Shown piece by piece: positions 7,242 through 18,439 of a stretch of 33,103 bases of DNA. Made by a program: the position numbers and the translations under genes. How positions within the stretch are numbered: position 1 is the stretch's first letter; every line of letters starts with the position of its first letter. Location of the stretch: contig JAHYJH010000022.1 of the NCBI GenBank assembly GCA_019429185.1, positions 1-33,103 of the forward strand, in the 5' to 3' direction. Source of the stretch: Vicingaceae bacterium. Its GTDB lineage: Bacteria > Bacteroidota > Bacteroidia > Flavobacteriales_E > Vicingaceae. The notes beneath the pieces were generated by a model. It saw only the letters and a program-made list of their open reading frames with translations. It was not told where the DNA came from and searched no databases.

Positions 7242-7892
7242 ATGATTAAAGTAGAAGAAGTACACAAATCTTATGGAGATTTAGAAGTTCTCAAAGGAGT
7301 TAATTTAGAGATAAAAGAAGGAGAAATTGTATCTATAGTTGGTTCATCAGGAGCGGGAAAATCAACCTTACTTCAACTTATTGGTACGCTCGATAAGCCT
7401 AAAAGTGGACAAATTTTAATAAATAACACAAATACATCTGTTTTAAAAGATGCAAAACTTTCTCTTTTTAGAAATAAGCATATTGGTTTTGTATTTCAAT
7501 TTCATCATTTATTACCTGAATTTACTGCCTTAGAAAATGTTTGTATTCCTGCTTATATCCAACACATAAAAAAAGAAGAAGCCGAAAAAAGAGGAATTGA
7601 ACTACTCACTTCTTTGGGATTGCAAGAACGAATGCACCACAAACCCTCAGAACTATCGGGTGGAGAACAACAACGGGTTGCTGTTTGCAGGGCGTTAATG
7701 AACAAACCTGCTGTAATTCTTGCTGATGAACCTTCGGGGAATTTAGATTCTACCTCAGCCAAAGAATTGCATCAATTATTTTTTGATTTACGAGCTAAAA
7801 CCAACCAAACTTTTGTAATTGTTACCCACAATGAAGAATTAGCCAATATGGCAGATAGAAAATTAGTGATGAAAGATGGTGTGATTCTATAA
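7242..7892 (+). CDS. lolD: ABC transporter ATP-binding protein, LolD/MacB type
   Basis: A 216-residue cytoplasmic ATPase. The Walker A motif is at residues 34-42 (GSSGAGKST), the Q-loop in [12 protein letters not shown], the ABC signature at 138 (LSGGEQQR), Walker B in [12 protein letters not shown] and the H-loop in VTHNEE. The [15 protein letters not shown] stretch is typical of the LolD/FtsE/MacB subfamily, which moves lipoproteins or other substrates from the inner membrane. No permease partner is in the window, so LolD is the likeliest assignment by similarity but MacB-type function cannot be excluded. It is the last gene of the recJ cluster, directly before the first REP-like element. 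Confidence 0.85.
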
Positions 7893-7901
7893 ACGGATTT
7901 A

Positions 7902-8010
7902 TTTTTTATCAGTTGGCTAAAGCCAAACTATAATAGATATAGTAGCAATCTTTTACAGTTGCTTTTAAGCAACTGTAAAAGAAAGTATAACCAAGTGGCT
8001 TTAGCCACAT
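7902..8010 (+). repeat. REP-like three-hairpin element, copy 1
   Basis: About 109 bp. A T-run is followed by a short hairpin (7913-7918 with 7921-7926), a central perfect 15-bp stem with a 2-base loop (7950-7964 with 7967-7981) and an end hairpin (7995-8000 with 8003-8008, GTGGCT/AGCCAC). The outer hairpins are inverted versions of each other (GGCTAAAGCC and GGCTTTAGCC), like element ends. It ends 12 bases before the transposase ATG, so it may be the transposase's recognition end and also form structure in its mRNA leader. Confidence 0.85.
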
Positions 8011-8022
8011 AAAACAAAAATT

Positions 8023-8460
8023 ATGAGTTGGGTAAGCGTCTATATGCACATGGTTTTTTCAACAAAAAACAGAGTTCCATATCTAAACACTAAAGAATTA
8101 AGAAAGCAAGTATTTCAACACATCAAAGCAAATGCAGCAGAAAAAGACATCTGGCTTGATTGTGTGAATGGGCATAAAGATCATGCACATTGTTTAATTG
8201 CTCTTGGCAAAGAACAAACCATTAGTAAAGTTGCACAACTTATAAAAGGAGAATCGTCCTTTTGGATAAATCAAAACAAACTAACTACTGATAAATTTAT
8301 GTGGCAGGACGATTATTGGGTAGTTGGTGTAAGCGAAAGTCATCTGAAATATGTTAGAAAGTATATTCACAATCAAGAACAACATCATTCAAAAAAATCT
8401 TTTACTAATGAAGTGAATGGATTAATGGAAAAATACGGATGGAGTTACGTGAAAGAATAA
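8023..8460 (+). CDS. tnpA: IS200/RAYT-like Y1 transposase
   Basis: A 145-residue HUH single-strand transposase of the IS200/IS605 TnpA fold, or a REP-associated relative. The HUH metal motif is seen as H54-A-H56 in KDHAHCLI, and the catalytic tyrosine is probably Y114 in KYIHNQEQHH, with the family-typical WQDDYWV segment before it. The length is normal and the frame intact, so it may be active. It lies directly downstream of a three-hairpin REP-like element and a second copy lies 1.6 kb beyond its stop. No matching hairpin was found immediately after the stop codon at 8460, so the right end of a simple IS200 copy is not visible. Confidence 0.93.
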   Translation: MSWVSVYMHMVFSTKNRVPYLNTKELRKQVFQHIKANAAEKDIWLDCVNGHKDHAHCLIALGKEQTISKVAQLIKGESSFWINQNKLTTDKFMWQDDYWVVGVSESHLKYVRKYIHNQEQHHSKKSFTNEVNGLMEKYGWSYVKE

Positions 8461-8594
8461 TCTTTTTATAAAACTAAAAAAGAATTTTGTAATTTTATCA
8501 TTATCCATGAAAACACAGTAAAAAAAACATTAAAATGCGAAGCTGTATGGAGATTGTGAATTAAAAAAGTATCAACTTTTAAAAATACCTAATT

Positions 8595-9188
8595 ATGGGC
8601 TTAAGTATTCATTATAGTGGTAGTTTCAAAAAAAAAGCTTCATTAGAAGCAATGATAGAGGAAGTAAAAGATATTGCCGAAATTTACAAATGGGAATATA
8701 ATATAAGTGCTACTTGTTTTCCAAAAAACACATTTGGCAAAGCAGCCTACGATGGTAAGTTATACGGCATTTCGTTTACTCCTCCCAACAGCGAAACTAT
8801 TTCCTTGACCTTTTTATCTAATGGTAAAATGTGTTGCGGGGCTCGATTAAAATTTTTCGGTAATTCCGATAATGAAAATGACAAAATGTATTTAAATACG
8901 TTGAGTTCAAAGACACAGTATGCAGGAAGTACAGTTCACAAAATAGTTATTCATTTACTCAAGTATTTAAGCCAAAAATATTTTCAGGATTTTCAACTTA
9001 TTGATGAGGGCGATTATTGGGAAACAGGAGATGAAAAACTTTTAGAAAAGAATTTTAAAACTTATAATGACTTAATAGATGGGATAGCACATTCAATAAA
9101 TAATTATCCTATTAACAGTGCTGAATCATTTCCTGATTATTTTGAAAGAATATTAAAAATACTTAACGAAAAAAGAAATAAAAAATGA
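8595..9188 (+). CDS. hypothetical protein starting MGLSIHYSG
   Basis: A 197-residue soluble protein with no signal peptide. It opens with MGLSIHYSGSFKKK, a beginning I associate with a family of uncharacterised Bacteroidota proteins, followed by a helical stretch (residues ~15-35), a beta-rich middle with a CCGARLKFFG strand, and a charged helical tail (about 140-197, ending EKRNKK). No catalytic motif stands out. It lies between the two REP-like copies, 134 bases after the transposase and 27 bases before the next gene, with which it is probably cotranscribed. Its function is not recognised; it is presumably cargo or a neighbour of the IS200 insertion. Confidence 0.7.
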   Translation: MGLSIHYSGSFKKKASLEAMIEEVKDIAEIYKWEYNISATCFPKNTFGKAAYDGKLYGISFTPPNSETISLTFLSNGKMCCGARLKFFGNSDNENDKMYLNTLSSKTQYAGSTVHKIVIHLLKYLSQKYFQDFQLIDEGDYWETGDEKLLEKNFKTYNDLIDGIAHSINNYPINSAESFPDYFERILKILNEKRNKK

Positions 9189-9215
9189 TACTATCTTTAT
9201 TTAAAAGCAAATGAT

Positions 9216-10034
9216 ATGGAAAATAATGAAGACGAACTCAATAAGATTAGAATAGAGAACGAAATAAAGAAAATGAAACTTTCTTTAGAACATGGTGCAA
9301 ATTTTTCATCTTCTAATGAAAATAAGTTACCTCCCGAATTGGAAAGTCAGTGGCTAAATCATATACAGCAATATGAAGATGCTTTTGCCAATTCTAAAAT
9401 GATTTCAGTTTATGATTTTATTGGAAACCCAACATATAAATCTGTAAACGAAATCCCAAAAACTGAAATAAATGTTGAACTTAATAAGATTATAAAAATT
9501 CTTAATAAAAAAGGAATTGTTATAGATACTATTTGTGAGGTAGATGACAGCGAATTGTACCGATTTATTACTGAAGAATTGTTCAATGAAAAAATGGAGG
9601 ATATTAAAATTGAGGGAATGGTGCATCATTATATTTATGAAGAATTTCATCCCAATCATGAACATGATATTAAAACTCAGTGTGAAGAATTTATTGACGA
9701 ACTTTTAAATAAAAATTTCAAACTGAACCCCACTTATATATCTATTACAGATGAAATAAATACAAAAATCGGAGTAATCAAAAAAGAAGAGGCGGTAAAG
9801 AAAATGGAAGCGTTTAGAGATGAATTTAGCTCTTTTAACTTAGACCATTTCAACATAACCTCTTTGAAAATAACAGAAGATACCGCAGATGTTTATTTTG
9901 ATATAAACTACTCAGGTTGTTTGGAGGATAGTAATGAGAAAATAGTTTTTTCAGGAATAGGAAGTTTTAAACTAAAATACGAATATAGTTATTGGTGGAT
10001 TAGCAAGATAAATATTCCCCAATTCTGTCTTTAA
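9216..10034 (+). CDS. hypothetical protein with possible NTF2-like C-terminus
   Basis: A 272-residue acidic soluble protein. The N terminus (about 1-50) is charged and helical. The middle (about 95-165) contains an HHYIYEEFHPNHEHD segment rich in His and acidic residues that could bind metal. The last ~75 residues (ITSLKITEDTADVYFDINYS, then FKLKYEYSYWWISKINI) read like the curved sheet of an NTF2/SnoaL-like fold, which is inference from strand pattern only. No signal peptide is present. It follows the MGLSIHYSG gene by 27 bases, and its stop lies just before the second REP-like copy, so the element could act as its terminator. Function unknown. Confidence 0.65.
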   Translation: MENNEDELNKIRIENEIKKMKLSLEHGANFSSSNENKLPPELESQWLNHIQQYEDAFANSKMISVYDFIGNPTYKSVNEIPKTEINVELNKIIKILNKKGIVIDTICEVDDSELYRFITEELFNEKMEDIKIEGMVHHYIYEEFHPNHEHDIKTQCEEFIDELLNKNFKLNPTYISITDEINTKIGVIKKEEAVKKMEAFRDEFSSFNLDHFNITSLKITEDTADVYFDINYSGCLEDSNEKIVFSGIGSFKLKYEYSYWWISKINIPQFCL

Positions 10035-10035
10035 C

Positions 10036-10145
10036 TTTTTTTTATCAGTGGCTAAAGCCAAACTGTAATAGATTTGAAAGCAATCTTTTACAGTTGCTTT
10101 TAAGCAACTGATAAAAAAAAGTATACCCAAGTGGCTTTAGCCACA
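10036..10145 (+). repeat. REP-like three-hairpin element, copy 2
   Basis: Same orientation and architecture as the copy at 7902-8010: left hairpin 10049-10053 with 10056-10060, central stem 10091-10099 with 10102-10110 (extended by a bulged T/A stem), and right hairpin 10131-10136 with 10139-10144. It carries no transposase behind it; a DUF1801 gene starts 17 bases later. Most substitutions relative to copy 1 fall outside the stems. It looks like a non-autonomous copy. Confidence 0.83.
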
Positions 10146-10161
10146 TTTAAACAATAACCAG

Positions 10162-10632
10162 ATGAAAGCACAAGGCAAAACCGTTAAAGATATTTTGTTA
10201 AACCTGCCCGAGGACAGGCTTGAACCTTTTAATAAACTGCACAATGTAATTGTAATAAACCTTCCTAAAGGATTTGAACCCGCCATTAGTTACGGTGGAC
10301 TGGGTTATGTGGTGCCGCATAAACTTTACCCCGCAGGTTACCATTGTAAGCCTGAAGAACCACTACCTTTTGCTGGTATAGCCTCGCAAAAAGGGTCTAT
10401 TAATTTTTATCACATGGGGATTTATGCTAATCCAAAACTATTAAACTGGTTTGTGAGCGAATATCCTAAACACAGCAAACAAAAACTGGATATGGGTAAG
10501 AGTTGTGTTCGTTTTAAAAAATTAGAAGATATTCCCTATAAACTTATAGGCGAATTAATAAAAAAAATGAGTGCAAAAGAATGGATTGAGATGTATGAAG
10601 AAAAATTTGTACCAAAATCAAAAAAAAAGTAA
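10162..10632 (+). CDS. DUF1801 domain protein
   Basis: A 156-residue protein with the DUF1801 (YdhG-like) pattern: a short N-terminal helix, LNLPEDRLEPFNKLHNVI, then EPAISYGGLGYVVP, a beta sheet through FAGIASQKGSINFYHMGIY, and the closing GKSCVRFKKLEDIPYKLIGELI. The biochemical role of this family is not established; the fold is related to small ligand-binding or iron-chaperone-like domains. The tail is Lys-rich (VPKSKKK). It begins just after the second REP-like copy, which may supply or disturb its leader. It seems monocistronic. Confidence 0.85.
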   Translation: MKAQGKTVKDILLNLPEDRLEPFNKLHNVIVINLPKGFEPAISYGGLGYVVPHKLYPAGYHCKPEEPLPFAGIASQKGSINFYHMGIYANPKLLNWFVSEYPKHSKQKLDMGKSCVRFKKLEDIPYKLIGELIKKMSAKEWIEMYEEKFVPKSKKK

Positions 10633-10763
10633 GCGTTATTGTTAGCTTTATAGCAACAACATTTCCATATACTTCCAATTCAAGTTGCATTTAAGCACCT
10701 AACTATTGCATACAAATAATTATTAATTTAGCACCTTTAAAAATTACCTAAATTCATTTTTCA

Positions 10764-15721: not shown

Positions 15722-17209
15722 TTATCCAACAACCTTTCGGTTAAGCACTAAACTTTGATTAACGGCAACACTTTTATTTTTGACTTTAAAACCATTATTA
15801 CTTATAGAAAATGTTACATACCCGCTTTCTTCTTTTTCATTCGTATTCTTCTGCCTTTCACCTTTACTGATTTTTGTCATTAATAACTCTAATTCTGCAT
15901 TCATTTTCATGTTACGTTCTTCTTTTCTTCTTAAAATTCCTATACAAGCTTTAGGGCTTAAATAGAATTTGTCAAGAGCATGATTAGGCTCTATAATATT
16001 CTTTAAATTACCTTCAATTGGATTGTTTGATATAGCAGAAGAGTTTAAATATCCATAATGACTAATTTGATTAATTCCATCAAGTAAATAGAGTAACGCG
16101 TTTTGTTTGTTCTTTTTTGGTTGAACAAATTTTTGCCATTCAGTAAATCCGTTTTTAATTTTATTATCGACAAACTCACTTATTTTACTACCAATCCATT
16201 TAACCACAGGAACGGCCCAAGAATTGCCAACAGCTTGAAATCTTTTTGTATGGCTATTTCCATTAATTTTTGTGTAGTTATCAGGAAAGCCCATTAATCG
16301 CTCACACTCCAAGGGAGTAAAACGTCTAATTTTATCATTTTCTGCTATATATAATGATCCATTATAGGCTGCTGCATTTCCGTTCCATTTTGTACCGTAG
16401 GCGGCATATAAACAATCCGTATATTCTCTGAATATTTCAAATTTAACTCCTTGCTTGTAAAACACCTTTTCATTTTTAATCCCTTTCTCTTGATTATTTA
16501 TTGAAAATAAATCAGGAATATTTAATGTTGGTTTTTTAGCATTTAATTTTACTTCTTTCACAATGTCTTTGTTGTCAAACTCAAAAAGTACCTGATCGGG
16601 TTTAAAACCTTTGCCACCAGCAAGAACATACAGTCTTTTTCTTTGTTGTGGTAATCCAAAATATTTAGCATCAATAACTCTCCATGCTACATTCCTTTCT
16701 TTACCCTCTAAATATCCTGATTTAGACCATTTATCAACTTTAATTTCTTCATCATAACCTGCTAAACCTGCAATAAAATTACCAAAAGCATTTGTTCTAT
16801 CGTTTAATACCCCTTCAACATTCTCCCAAAGAACTATGCTTTTTTCTTTTCCTCTTTCTAACCTAATTTTATCAATTGCATTGGCTATTTCAATAAATGT
16901 TATCGTTAGTTGCCCCCTTTCATCCGCAAGTCCATTTTTCCATCCTGCTAAAGAAAATGCTTGACAAGGTGTTCCTCCGCAAAATAAGTCAGGAGCTTCA
17001 ATTTCTCCGCAAAGAATTGCATTAGGAATATTTATCATATCCCCAACATTTGGAATGTTAGGAAAATGATGTTCAAGTACTTTTGAAGGAAATTCCGCAA
17101 TTTCTGAACTCCATAATTGCTTAAACCCATAAGGGGAAAAAGCTAATTGAGAGGCTTCTATTCCTGAACAGACACTGCCAAATGTTAAATTTCCTTTCAT
17201 ATTTTTCAT
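15722..17209 (-). CDS. type II DNA (cytosine-5) methyltransferase
   Basis: A 495-residue C5 methyltransferase, the protective partner of the adjacent endonuclease. Conserved blocks: motif I FGSVCSGIEA (10-19), motif IV GGTPCQAFS with catalytic C82, motif VI ENVEG (129-133), motif VIII QQRKR (188-192), motif IX FTPLECERLMGFPD (297-310) and motif X QAVGNSWAVP (325-334). The variable target region between about 200 and 290 sets specificity, which cannot be read by eye. A ~150-residue C-terminal extension contains FYLSPKACIGILRR (415-428), a signature I associate with phage and prophage cytosine methylases. A second ATG at 17200 is possible. Its own -7 box lies just upstream. Confidence 0.93.
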   Translation of the reverse strand: MKNMKGNLTFGSVCSGIEASQLAFSPYGFKQLWSSEIAEFPSKVLEHHFPNIPNVGDMINIPNAILCGEIEAPDLFCGGTPCQAFSLAGWKNGLADERGQLTITFIEIANAIDKIRLERGKEKSIVLWENVEGVLNDRTNAFGNFIAGLAGYDEEIKVDKWSKSGYLEGKERNVAWRVIDAKYFGLPQQRKRLYVLAGGKGFKPDQVLFEFDNKDIVKEVKLNAKKPTLNIPDLFSINNQEKGIKNEKVFYKQGVKFEIFREYTDCLYAAYGTKWNGNAAAYNGSLYIAENDKIRRFTPLECERLMGFPDNYTKINGNSHTKRFQAVGNSWAVPVVKWIGSKISEFVDNKIKNGFTEWQKFVQPKKNKQNALLYLLDGINQISHYGYLNSSAISNNPIEGNLKNIIEPNHALDKFYLSPKACIGILRRKEERNMKMNAELELLMTKISKGERQKNTNEKEESGYVTFSISNNGFKVKNKSVAVNQSLVLNRKVVG

Positions 17210-17214
17210 TTATG

Positions 17215-17222
17215 CAAATTTA
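17215..17222 (-). promoter_or_regulatory. -7 box TAAATTTG for the methyltransferase
   Basis: An exact TAnnTTTG match read on the minus strand, five bases before ATG 17209, which implies a leaderless or nearly leaderless mRNA, or use of ATG 17200. It lies directly downstream of the shared box at 17224-17239. Confidence 0.55.
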
Positions 17223-17223
17223 C

Positions 17224-17239
17224 AAATGATAATTATAGT
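17224..17239 (-). promoter_or_regulatory. candidate controller box upstream of methyltransferase
   Basis: Read on the minus strand this is ACTATAATTATCATTT, matching 15 of 16 bases with 18427-18442 (ACTATAATTAGCATTT, plus strand) beside the controller promoter. It abuts the -7 box and would cover the -33 zone. The two flanking TATGCAAATT copies (17211-17220 and 17239-17248) are an additional direct repeat. A/T richness raises the chance of coincidence. Confidence 0.5.
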
Positions 17240-17251
17240 ATGCAAATTGAT

Positions 17252-18154
17252 TTATAATTTTTCTTTGAGTTTTATCTTCCAAAGTTCTAAATCATACCAA
17301 GGACAACCAACACAACCTTTTTCATCATTTTCAGTGGTGCCATTCCAATTTTCATCTCCTTGATAATACCATTTTATACCCATAAAATCTCCTCGTTTAC
17401 CTATTTTTACACAAGTATCACAATACCTAGATTTCCACATATTAGTTTGGTTATTTAACAGTTGAAATTTTCTTCTTATATCTGCCACAGACATATCATC
17501 AGAGTTAACAGATTCTTTAGCTATCCATCTTTGTGATGGAAATTTGTGATCAATAATTAATTCTACAGAGGTTCTTTTCACATTAAAACAAACTTCCTTT
17601 TTACCCAATATTTTTTTAATACGTTCTTTTAATTTCTCTGACATTGAAGCTCTCAATTCATTTCCATCTTCAAACTTTGATTGAATTTTCGGCAGCATAA
17701 TCAAAATATCATGCATAGTTTTTTTAGAACATGATGTACATGGTCTTCTTTTAGAGCCGATAATATACCCTTGCTTTTTTAACACACTTAAACGAGCTGC
17801 TGGTTGGGGATTTTCGGTAGGTACTGGACCACAAACTCTACACTCCCAATTTCCTGAGTATAATGCTTTAAGAACCTTATATGTTTGAGTATTCTTTTGA
17901 TAATCAGACCATTTATCATCACTTTCGGTAATCCATTTTTGACGATTTTTAGGATTTAATTTATTGTACGATTCTTCAACAGAATTGTAAAAATCTTCTT
18001 CCGTTAAATCTAATCCTTGAAATTTTAAAAATTTTGGAAGCAACCCTTTCCATTTTTGAGTTCCATATTCGAACTCAACTTCCATAAAAACATCACTGGT
18101 TTTTTCTGCGATAAAAAATTCTTTTGATAGTTTATATTTTTTATTCTTTGCCAT
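17252..18154 (-). CDS. type II restriction endonuclease, HNH with two zinc-ribbon Cys pairs
   Basis: A 300-residue protein. A helical N-terminal half is followed by Cys pairs C105-x2-C108 and C139-x2-C142, an HNH/beta-beta-alpha-Me core with D202-H203 (IDHKFPSQRW) and N235/N238 with K241 (LLNNQTNMWKSRYC), then Cys pairs C245-x2-C248 and C281-x2-C284. Eight cysteines could bind two zinc ions around the catalytic fold, as described for Hpy99I-like enzymes; similarity to that enzyme is architectural inference only. Position between a controller and a C5 methylase makes the endonuclease role strong. The start ATG overlaps the end of the controller gene by 14 bases, so the two are translationally coupled. 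The recognition site is unknown. Confidence 0.85.
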   Translation of the reverse strand: MAKNKKYKLSKEFFIAEKTSDVFMEVEFEYGTQKWKGLLPKFLKFQGLDLTEEDFYNSVEESYNKLNPKNRQKWITESDDKWSDYQKNTQTYKVLKALYSGNWECRVCGPVPTENPQPAARLSVLKKQGYIIGSKRRPCTSCSKKTMHDILIMLPKIQSKFEDGNELRASMSEKLKERIKKILGKKEVCFNVKRTSVELIIDHKFPSQRWIAKESVNSDDMSVADIRRKFQLLNNQTNMWKSRYCDTCVKIGKRGDFMGIKWYYQGDENWNGTTENDEKGCVGCPWYDLELWKIKLKEKL

Positions 18155-18374
18155 TTCTAAATCTTAATAAGTCCTCTATTTTGACTTCTAAAGCATTAGC
18201 AATTTTTTCAATGTTAGCGAGAGTTATATTTTTTTCGGCTCTTTCAATCATTCCAATATAAGTTCTGTGGAGGTCAGCTTTGTGGGCCAATTCTTCTTGA
18301 GAAATGTTCAGTAAGTGCCTGTATTTTCTAACATTTTCTCCGAATAAATTTAATATTTCGTATTTAGATTTCAT
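18141..18374 (-). CDS. R-M controller (C) protein, XRE-family HTH
   Basis: A 77-residue HTH regulator of the type II R-M controller class. The helix-turn-helix is visible in ISQEELAHKADLHRTYIGMIERAEKN, and the following NITLANIEKIANALEV is typical of C proteins. They activate, then limit, endonuclease transcription so that methylation comes first. A longer reading would add seven residues from 18395, but ATG 18374 is preferred: an inverted-repeat arm and the 5' leader lie immediately upstream and would otherwise be inside the gene. It overlaps the endonuclease start by 14 bases, the usual C-R linkage. Confidence 0.9.
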   Translation of the reverse strand: MKSKYEILNLFGENVRKYRHLLNISQEELAHKADLHRTYIGMIERAEKNITLANIEKIANALEVKIEDLLRFRNGKE

Positions 18375-18439
18375 TGCTAATAAAAGTCTCCACAAAGCTA
18401 ACTTTAGTATTCAATTTCTACCACAGACTATAATTAGCA
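18375..18439 (-). promoter_or_regulatory. controller operator/promoter: inverted C-boxes around a -7 box
   Basis: Arms 18375-18389 (TGCTAATAAAAGTCT) and 18425-18439 (AGACTATAATTAGCA) are inverted repeats matching at 13 of 15 positions. Between them, on the minus strand, lies an exact -7 box TAGCTTTG (18393-18400). The upstream arm extends into TATAGTCTGTGG (minus, 18421-18432), resembling the TATAGTCCGTGG core of known C-protein operators such as AhdI. One arm sits over the -33 region and one over the start of transcription, fitting activation then repression. Confidence 0.7.

Follow-up and report, generated by a model that had tools for sequence, protein, structure and literature searches.

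A subclass 1.2 Y1 transposase and candidate companion hairpins at a probable REPtron-like locus of a Vicingaceae bacterium

We analysed a 33,103-nucleotide stretch of DNA from a Vicingaceae bacterium (contig JAHYJH010000022.1 of assembly GCA_019429185.1; hereafter the window), in which two hairpin-bearing elements in direct orientation bracket a Y1 transposase gene (tnpA) and two further genes at positions 7902-10148. This locus is probably REPtron-like (REP, repetitive extragenic palindrome), consisting of a single-copy subclass 1.2 TnpA_Y1, an HUH/tyrosine transposase of single-stranded DNA (ssDNA), with companion hairpins, and comparison of related loci suggests that the hairpins are inherited companion sites of the enzyme. 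The leader hairpin keeps one position and orientation across the enzyme clade, pairs of the outer hairpins O' and O (O'-O and O-O') are found in many of the same genomes, and mirrored hairpins lie 3' of the stop codon in some clade members, not in the window. The features concerned are, from 5' to 3':

7902-8012, + strand: element copy 1, an O'-I-O unit (core 7915-8006, 92 nt) resembling a REPIN (REP doublet forming a hairpin), from sequence comparison and ssDNA folding
7913-7926, + strand: O' hairpin of copy 1, TTGGCTAAAGCCAA
7949-7982, + strand: central hairpin I of copy 1, TCTTTTACAGTTGCTT-TT-AAGCAACTGTAAAAGA, with perfect 16-bp arms
7995-8008, + strand: O hairpin of copy 1, GTGGCTTTAGCCAC, 14 nt 5' of the transposase ATG
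8023-8460, + strand: TnpA_Y1 with the subclass 1.2 signature, 145 aa (PF01797, E 3.6e-24; alignment with IS608 TnpA; motif as given in the accessible part of PMC6006769)
8595-9188, + strand: passenger gene 1 (g8595), 197 aa, with patchy relatives in the same class
9216-10034, + strand: passenger gene 2 (g9216), 272 aa, with a conserved YEEF[HY]PN and patchy relatives in the same class
10038-10148, + strand: element copy 2, a second O'-I-O unit oriented like copy 1 (93-nt core, 10050-10142), from sequence comparison and ssDNA folding
10049-10060, + strand: O' hairpin of copy 2, TGGCTAAAGCCA
10086-10115, + strand: central hairpin I of copy 2, TTTTACAGTTGCTT..AAGCAACTGATAAA, with arms 86% complementary
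10131-10144, + strand: O hairpin of copy 2, GTGGCTTTAGCCAC

Each unit runs from O' (GGCTAAAGCC) through the central hairpin I to O (GGCTTTAGCC), and the two copies are 90% identical across 121 alignment columns. The original prediction, made from the letters of this DNA, had described two direct elements of the same three-hairpin architecture and orientation, their outer hairpins mutual inverted forms, one abutting the transposase start and the other closing a block with two unrecognised genes, and this description was borne out throughout: O' and O are inverted forms of each other, copy 2 begins about 3 nt 3' of the stop codon of open reading frame (ORF) 9216-10034, its last hairpin stops 17 nt before ORF 10162 (DUF1801), and family searches with the two inner genes were negative. 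Compared with shuffled sequences, the folding of the units as ssDNA gave z-scores of -10.1 (copy 1) and -7.5 (copy 2) on the + strand and of -8.5 and -7.4 on the - strand, with 0/200 shuffles folding as well as the window unit in each of the four tests. No known RNA family was found in the window at gathering thresholds.

The enzyme was aligned with IS608 TnpA (2a6m), whose DHIH and YIENQ align to DHAH and YIHNQ in the window protein. The HUH motif is thereby predicted at D53-H54-A55-H56, the alanine being a variant of the published consensus DH[IV]H, and the catalytic tyrosine at Y114, within Y114-IHN-Q118-EQ-H121-H122. The string YIHNQEQHH fits Y---Q--HH, which, in the accessible part of the 2018 survey by Quentin et al. 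(PMC6006769), is the signature of TnpA_Y1 subclass 1.2, found mostly in Cyanobacteria and Bacteroidetes, annotated there as 'REP: no' and described as an IS200-like enzyme without the properties of an insertion sequence (IS). The NCBIfam IS200 model scored 56.8 bits (cut-off 55) and the model for REP-associated tyrosine transposases (RAYTs), NF047646, 35.6 bits (cut-off 80); the RAYT or class 2 motif Y---NP is absent from the window protein, which has YIHNQ in its place. The earlier suggestion of a REP family with a RAYT-like enzyme stands in kind: the hairpin tracks the enzyme clade, as described below, but the enzyme is of subclass 1.2 and by its motif not a RAYT. Its copy number is low, with two TnpA matches in the genome of origin, the second being 35% identical to the window protein. 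Neither a second near-identical tnpA nor a whole unit at several sites, as for an IS, was found in that genome, and no tnpB-like gene lies within the block. Relatives have 1 to 7 TnpA matches per genome, mostly diverged from that of the window. A TnpA pattern search of IMG/VR gave no match, and the matches on PLSDB plasmids are distant (at most 33.6% identity in the 20 listed of 22 records).

The association of hairpin and enzyme was followed through 199 genomes, namely the genome of origin (G000) and others from its genus, family and class, together with nine further loci from GTDB (L codes denote loci). A TnpA match at E 1e-8 or better was present in 97/199 genomes, and the 98 distinct proteins extracted, which represent part of the TnpA matches listed, include 87 with Y---Q--HH, among them that of the window. 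The other 11 were excluded from the tree, including L073 and L075 (YIHSQEDKH), both of which have the clade hairpin described below on each side of tnpA. Strong hairpins (score of at least 12) were counted up to 120 nt upstream and up to 150 nt downstream of the 85 genes with enough flank; they stood upstream of 50/85 tnpA genes, compared to 5/90 control ORFs on the same loci, downstream of 39/85 (controls, 12/90), and on both sides of 26/85 (controls, 1/90). When the 87 proteins were placed in a quick maximum-likelihood tree, the window enzyme fell in a clade of 39 (Shimodaira-Hasegawa-like approximate likelihood ratio support 97) with pairwise protein identities of 0.35-0.97 (median 0.49); the near-identical loci L046, L167 and L171 enter both the 39 and the 85 as three separate members. 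The parity of the hairpin loop was not clean on this tree (10 changes), and the motif GGCTYYAGCC was therefore relied on instead. In the form GGCTTYAGCC it is the core of the window O hairpin (7995-8008) and of the leader hairpin of the clade. The presence of the motif on either side of tnpA requires three changes. It occurs upstream in sense orientation in 35/39 clade members, where 10-60 nt separate its end from the start codon, and its mirrored form GGCTRRAGCC lies within 150 nt downstream in 11/39; neither was found in any of the 48 tree members outside the clade. The wrong orientation was seen upstream in 4/39 and downstream in 1/39, and control ORFs on the clade loci had the motif upstream in 1/66 and mirrored downstream in 3/66. 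Two-sided cases run I-O-tnpA-O'-I' (e.g. L043, L147, L157), and in the units of some relatives, such as L071 and L073, a fourth upstream hairpin is visible by eye further out. Twenty relatives were compared for a second copy of the unit downstream of tnpA. Five (L069, L070, L073, L075, L147) have a direct copy of at least 41 nt within 250 nt, these full or partial copies sitting 25-128 nt past the gene and enclosing no cargo; five others (L040, L149, L043, L151, L153) have an inverted copy of 15 to 69 nt, and the remainder have none or one of 22 nt.

The paired arrangement extends beyond the tnpA loci. Searches of the 199 genomes with exact 10-mers, which decayed units escape, found O' and O spaced by 55-85 nt at 64 places in 18 genomes, and O and O' spaced by 5-35 nt at 68 places in 16 genomes; the reversed-pattern controls gave 0 in all 199. 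Either type of pair was present in 23/34 genomes with a close tnpA (best match at least 113 bits) as opposed to 6/165 others, and in 29/97 genomes with a TnpA match at E 1e-8 as opposed to 0/102 without one (18 family codes). That elements should outnumber transposase genes had been put forward as a check, and such is the case in several genomes: in G047, 18 O-O' places stand against a single TnpA match, in G143 nine O'-O places against two, and in the genome of origin seven O'-O places against two, with two of the seven lying in the window and five belonging to a sister family, B. An inverted pair forming a larger hairpin, in more copies than there are transposase genes, is what defines a REPIN and is what was found here, with the reservations that several of the families look as if copied by a DDE-type agent and that the exact window family comprises two units and one gene. 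Given that the hairpin tracks the enzyme clade and that several genomes contain more elements than transposase genes, a REP/RAYT-like reading is supported in kind, with a different enzyme class.

On the REPtron-like reading, TnpA would recognise the hairpins in ssDNA, would cleave beside them through Tyr114 together with His54 and His56, and could move or rearrange small units. The 5'-leader hairpin may fold in the mRNA as well, limiting translation. A leader structure regulates transposase translation in IS200, and one alternative, which we regard as unlikely, is that the hairpins are such a conserved 5'-leader structure and not substrates, the dispersed copies being MITE (miniature inverted-repeat transposable element) sequence with a coincidental core. 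The single orientation of the motif and its position 10-60 nt before the start codon in 35/39 clade members would suit this account, as would the finding that the dispersed copies of the families examined lie within longer inverted repeats. It does not, however, lead one to expect mirrored copies past the stop codon (11/39 clade members, and L073 and L075 too) or, in 16/199 genomes, O-O' pairs too close for a tnpA to stand between them, and it leaves the genome-level association with tnpA unexplained.

A number of observations weigh against the REPtron-like reading itself. The window tnpA has its hairpin on the upstream side only, with none within 150 nt downstream; 28/39 clade members are without the mirrored downstream motif, and the clade was selected after the labels had been placed on the tree. 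Six genomes have paired elements without a close tnpA, and the genome counts ignore kinship. The excess of single-motif totals in genomes with a close tnpA is real but modest: 1101 compared to 327 for the control in the 34 such genomes, 1388 compared to 890 in the 63 with a weaker match only, and 1417 compared to 854 in the 102 without a match (close against none, p 0.0035; close against weaker, p 0.0054), some genomes without a TnpA match, such as G157 and G188, being motif-rich as well. The exact window family is represented in the genome of origin by no more than both window copies and some fragments; BLAST with the window unit returned copy 2 at E 2.5e-38, and the best matches outside the window were fragments on contigs C186 (E 5e-7), C55 (3e-6) and C131 (0.006). 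No empty site was found for copy 1 or copy 2. Finally, multi-copy units are framed by longer inverted repeats. Six of the seven units fetched from G091 (of nine places) lie inside 171-173-bp elements with inverted ends GAGCCTGTTTAAA, and inverted ends near CTACAGGATTAAG stand on both sides of 9/14 fetched copies of family B, some of the other five being interrupted by contig ends. The six framed G091 units have 3-bp duplications, TAA/TAA or TTA/TTA, of a kind typical of some IS5-family DDE elements, and the seventh has a different right end. Such framed units were probably copied by a DDE transposase, and their copy number is thus no proof of TnpA activity.

Longer outer inverted repeats were recognised by eye around the units of G047, G103 and G143 too, and the hairpin core is nested within such repeats in all five multi-copy families examined. 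The evidence accordingly does not establish that the enzyme mobilises a REP family in trans. The hairpin cores have spread at least partly inside MITEs, and the share of TnpA in their spread is unproven; the nesting suggests one of two things, an attraction of the single-strand transposase to MITE hairpins or a dispersal of the hairpins by MITEs. A further alternative, to which we give even less credence than to the leader structure, is that DDE-type MITEs picked up REPIN cores and that what is left of two of them forms the window pair, placed beside tnpA by chance. The outer inverted repeats of family B and of the G091 copies speak for it. The window pair, on the other hand, is not framed in this way: the end motif of family B has 2 matches in the window (0.85 expected; equalled by 23/100 shuffles), which is chance level, and of four other end motifs sought in 7700-10400, three gave no match and one gave two, both falling on letters also present within the units. 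No match longer than 8 nt is shared by the flanks of either window copy, and the adjacency of hairpin and tnpA is clade-wide. Family B itself (L018-L031, G000:C29:20620-20707) comprises at least 15 repeat copies with an O'-I-O core and another central hairpin, CCCCGACCTTAAGGTCGGGG, all set between longer inverted ends, and is present too in G005, of the same genus.

The original prediction had also offered a peel-and-paste element with captured cargo, and for this we found no support. No family search exceeded its cut-off for g8595 (best E 0.05 in Pfam and 0.082 in PHROGs; none in NCBIfam or PADLOC) or for g9216 (best E 0.038 in Pfam; none in PHROGs, NCBIfam or PADLOC). The single-sequence fold of g8595 had a mean predicted local distance difference test score (pLDDT) of 61, its best PDB matches being acetyltransferases at a template modelling score of about 0.3 with no E below 0.001; that of g9216 (pLDDT 40) was unusable, and a sequence search against solved structures gave no useful match for either. 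A plasmid or viral origin was rejected on the databases searched: neither gene had a match in PLSDB, and none was confirmed in IMG/VR. Among the 198 other genomes, 8 have a relative of g8595 and 9 a relative of g9216; none of these is of the same genus or family, and none of the 198 has both genes. Thirteen of the 17 inner-gene neighbourhoods were read, the partial matches in G046, G078, G091 and G097 being left out, and L135, whose frame contains a stop, was excluded from alignment A2. In these 13 neighbourhoods no GGCTAAAGCC/GGCTTTAGCC unit adjoins an inner-gene relative; GGCTAAAGCC-type sites occur only in L136, as a pair at a distance of 5.2 kb from the gene, and looser GGCT-AGCC palindromes lie 1.0-3.6 kb off in L126, L128, L132 and L137 and within the gene in L134. 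Relatives of each inner gene thus occur without adjacent units in the neighbourhoods read, and direct copies of the unit stand near tnpA without cargo in 5/20 relatives; both findings go some way towards what had been named beforehand as signs of an accidental association, except that no relative has the two genes together. Loci lacking 7902-10145 as one block, the other comparison proposed, did not yield a clean empty site; the lolD-manC gap of the same-genus genomes G003 and G004 is filled with other DNA, including a 146-aa ORF in G003.

We therefore rejected a cargo transposon as a description of the block, the inner genes being never together elsewhere, no units standing beside their relatives in the 13 neighbourhoods read, and direct copies occurring near tnpA without cargo in 5/20 relatives. 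In its composite form, copy 1 as left end and copy 2 as right end would mobilise 7902-10148 with the inner genes as cargo. We consider this the most improbable of the alternatives, although the ends are oriented as such a unit would require and the block occupies the lolD-manC gap, which differs in G003 and G004. Beyond the points just given, the block as such was not found elsewhere in the 198 other genomes and the two window copies differ by about 10%. The one direct 8-mer common to the outer flanks, GATGAAAG, lies within lolD on one side and spans the start of ORF 10162 on the other, off the junctions, and these flanks have no common inverted 6-mer. The simplest account is that of an element cluster around tnpA, with unrelated genes that came into or beside it. 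Under the REPtron-like reading, the two window units would be members of such a local cluster, of the kind that several relatives have without cargo; the inner genes would have arrived independently, either inserted into the cluster or bypassed by a copy 2 that landed downstream of them, and would not be mobile cargo of the enzyme.

Compared with known systems, the window enzyme shares with subclass 1.2, as characterised in the available text of PMC6006769, the Y---Q--HH signature, low copy number and Bacteroidetes hosts, its 145 aa standing against a median of 148. In that text the subclass generally has no REP or terminal hairpins, which is a reported tendency and no criterion of the protein family, whereas strong hairpins flank many of the members tested here and one hairpin is almost invariant within a clade. 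With REPtrons and RAYT-REPIN systems (class 2 TnpA_REP) the locus has in common a low-copy HUH transposase gene with palindromes on its flanks and further palindrome pairs at other places in the genome; the differences are that the enzyme is of class 1 (Y---Q) and that longer inverted repeats often enclose the hairpin cores. Unlike the REPs of RAYTs, the hairpins have no constant GT[AG]G foot: GTGG stands at the foot in 4/35 leaders, that of the window included, as letters of the stem, and GTAG in none of the 35. The letters of the motif are found within H. influenzae REPs (accessible part of PMC2817692). IS200/IS605 elements (subclass 1.1) have the same HUH and Y---Q motifs, as aligned to IS608 TnpA, and hairpins beside the gene, but here there is no second near-identical tnpA in the genome and no tnpB-like gene in the block. 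As for TIRYT/TIRtrons, in which (as far as the text of PMC3733652 and PMC6006769 was available) a Y1 transposase is accompanied by longer inverted repeats, the likeness is with another locus of the genome of origin, C64, where nested repeats of 23-34 nt stand to either side; at the window tnpA there are hairpins in place of long terminal inverted repeats, and 20/26 described TIRYT are class 2.1 enzymes (PMC6006769, same limit). Among the papers listed from the open-licence literature on REPIN, RAYT, IS200 palindromes, Bacteroidetes and subclass 1.2, none was found to describe such hairpins for a subclass 1.2 enzyme. The substrate of this subclass was open in 2018, and a hairpin fixed in place and orientation across enzymes down to 35% identity is a concrete candidate; if it is the substrate, the REP/RAYT idea would be extended from class 2 to class 1 enzymes. 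More tentatively, and at somewhat less than even odds in our judgement, the subclass 1.2 TnpA_Y1 of Bacteroidota may represent a third kind of REPtron, in which a domesticated IS200-like (class 1) enzyme is co-inherited with the GGCTTYAGCC hairpin and the O'-I-O units have on repeated occasions been taken up as cores by unrelated DDE-type MITEs, placing two transposition systems on one element.

Other Y1 loci were noted in the genome of origin. The C64 locus (G000:C64:7278-8025; L036:1779-2526) is an almost symmetrical unit around the second subclass 1.2 tnpA, with three nested inverted repeats on each side (23, 34 and 26 nt; 96-100% complementary). A truncated Y1 transposase lies 3' of tandem 22-nt repeats of the CCGCAGGTGCAACCTGTGG type (G000:C193:7848-8069; L037). 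On contig C102 (L012:124-2358, - strand), a Y1_Tnp domain (PF01797, E 4e-11, residues 501-613) sits in frame within an Eco57I-type restriction-modification methylase, between the N6_Mtase/MmeI part and the Eco57I part. The lolD-manC gap of G003 and G004 and the region 3' of lolD in G002 (L140, L138 and L139) contain varied small genes with attC-like inverted ends, e.g. GCCAAC..GTTGGC in G002, and look by eye like an integron-cassette-like hotspot. Elsewhere in the window, positions 15722-18395 (- strand) encode, by PADLOC models, a Type II restriction-modification set made up of a cytosine methylase, a restriction enzyme and a control protein, and a short hairpin at 10642-10662, TTGTTAGCTTTATAGCAACAA, 3' of the DUF1801 gene, is by its appearance perhaps a terminator.

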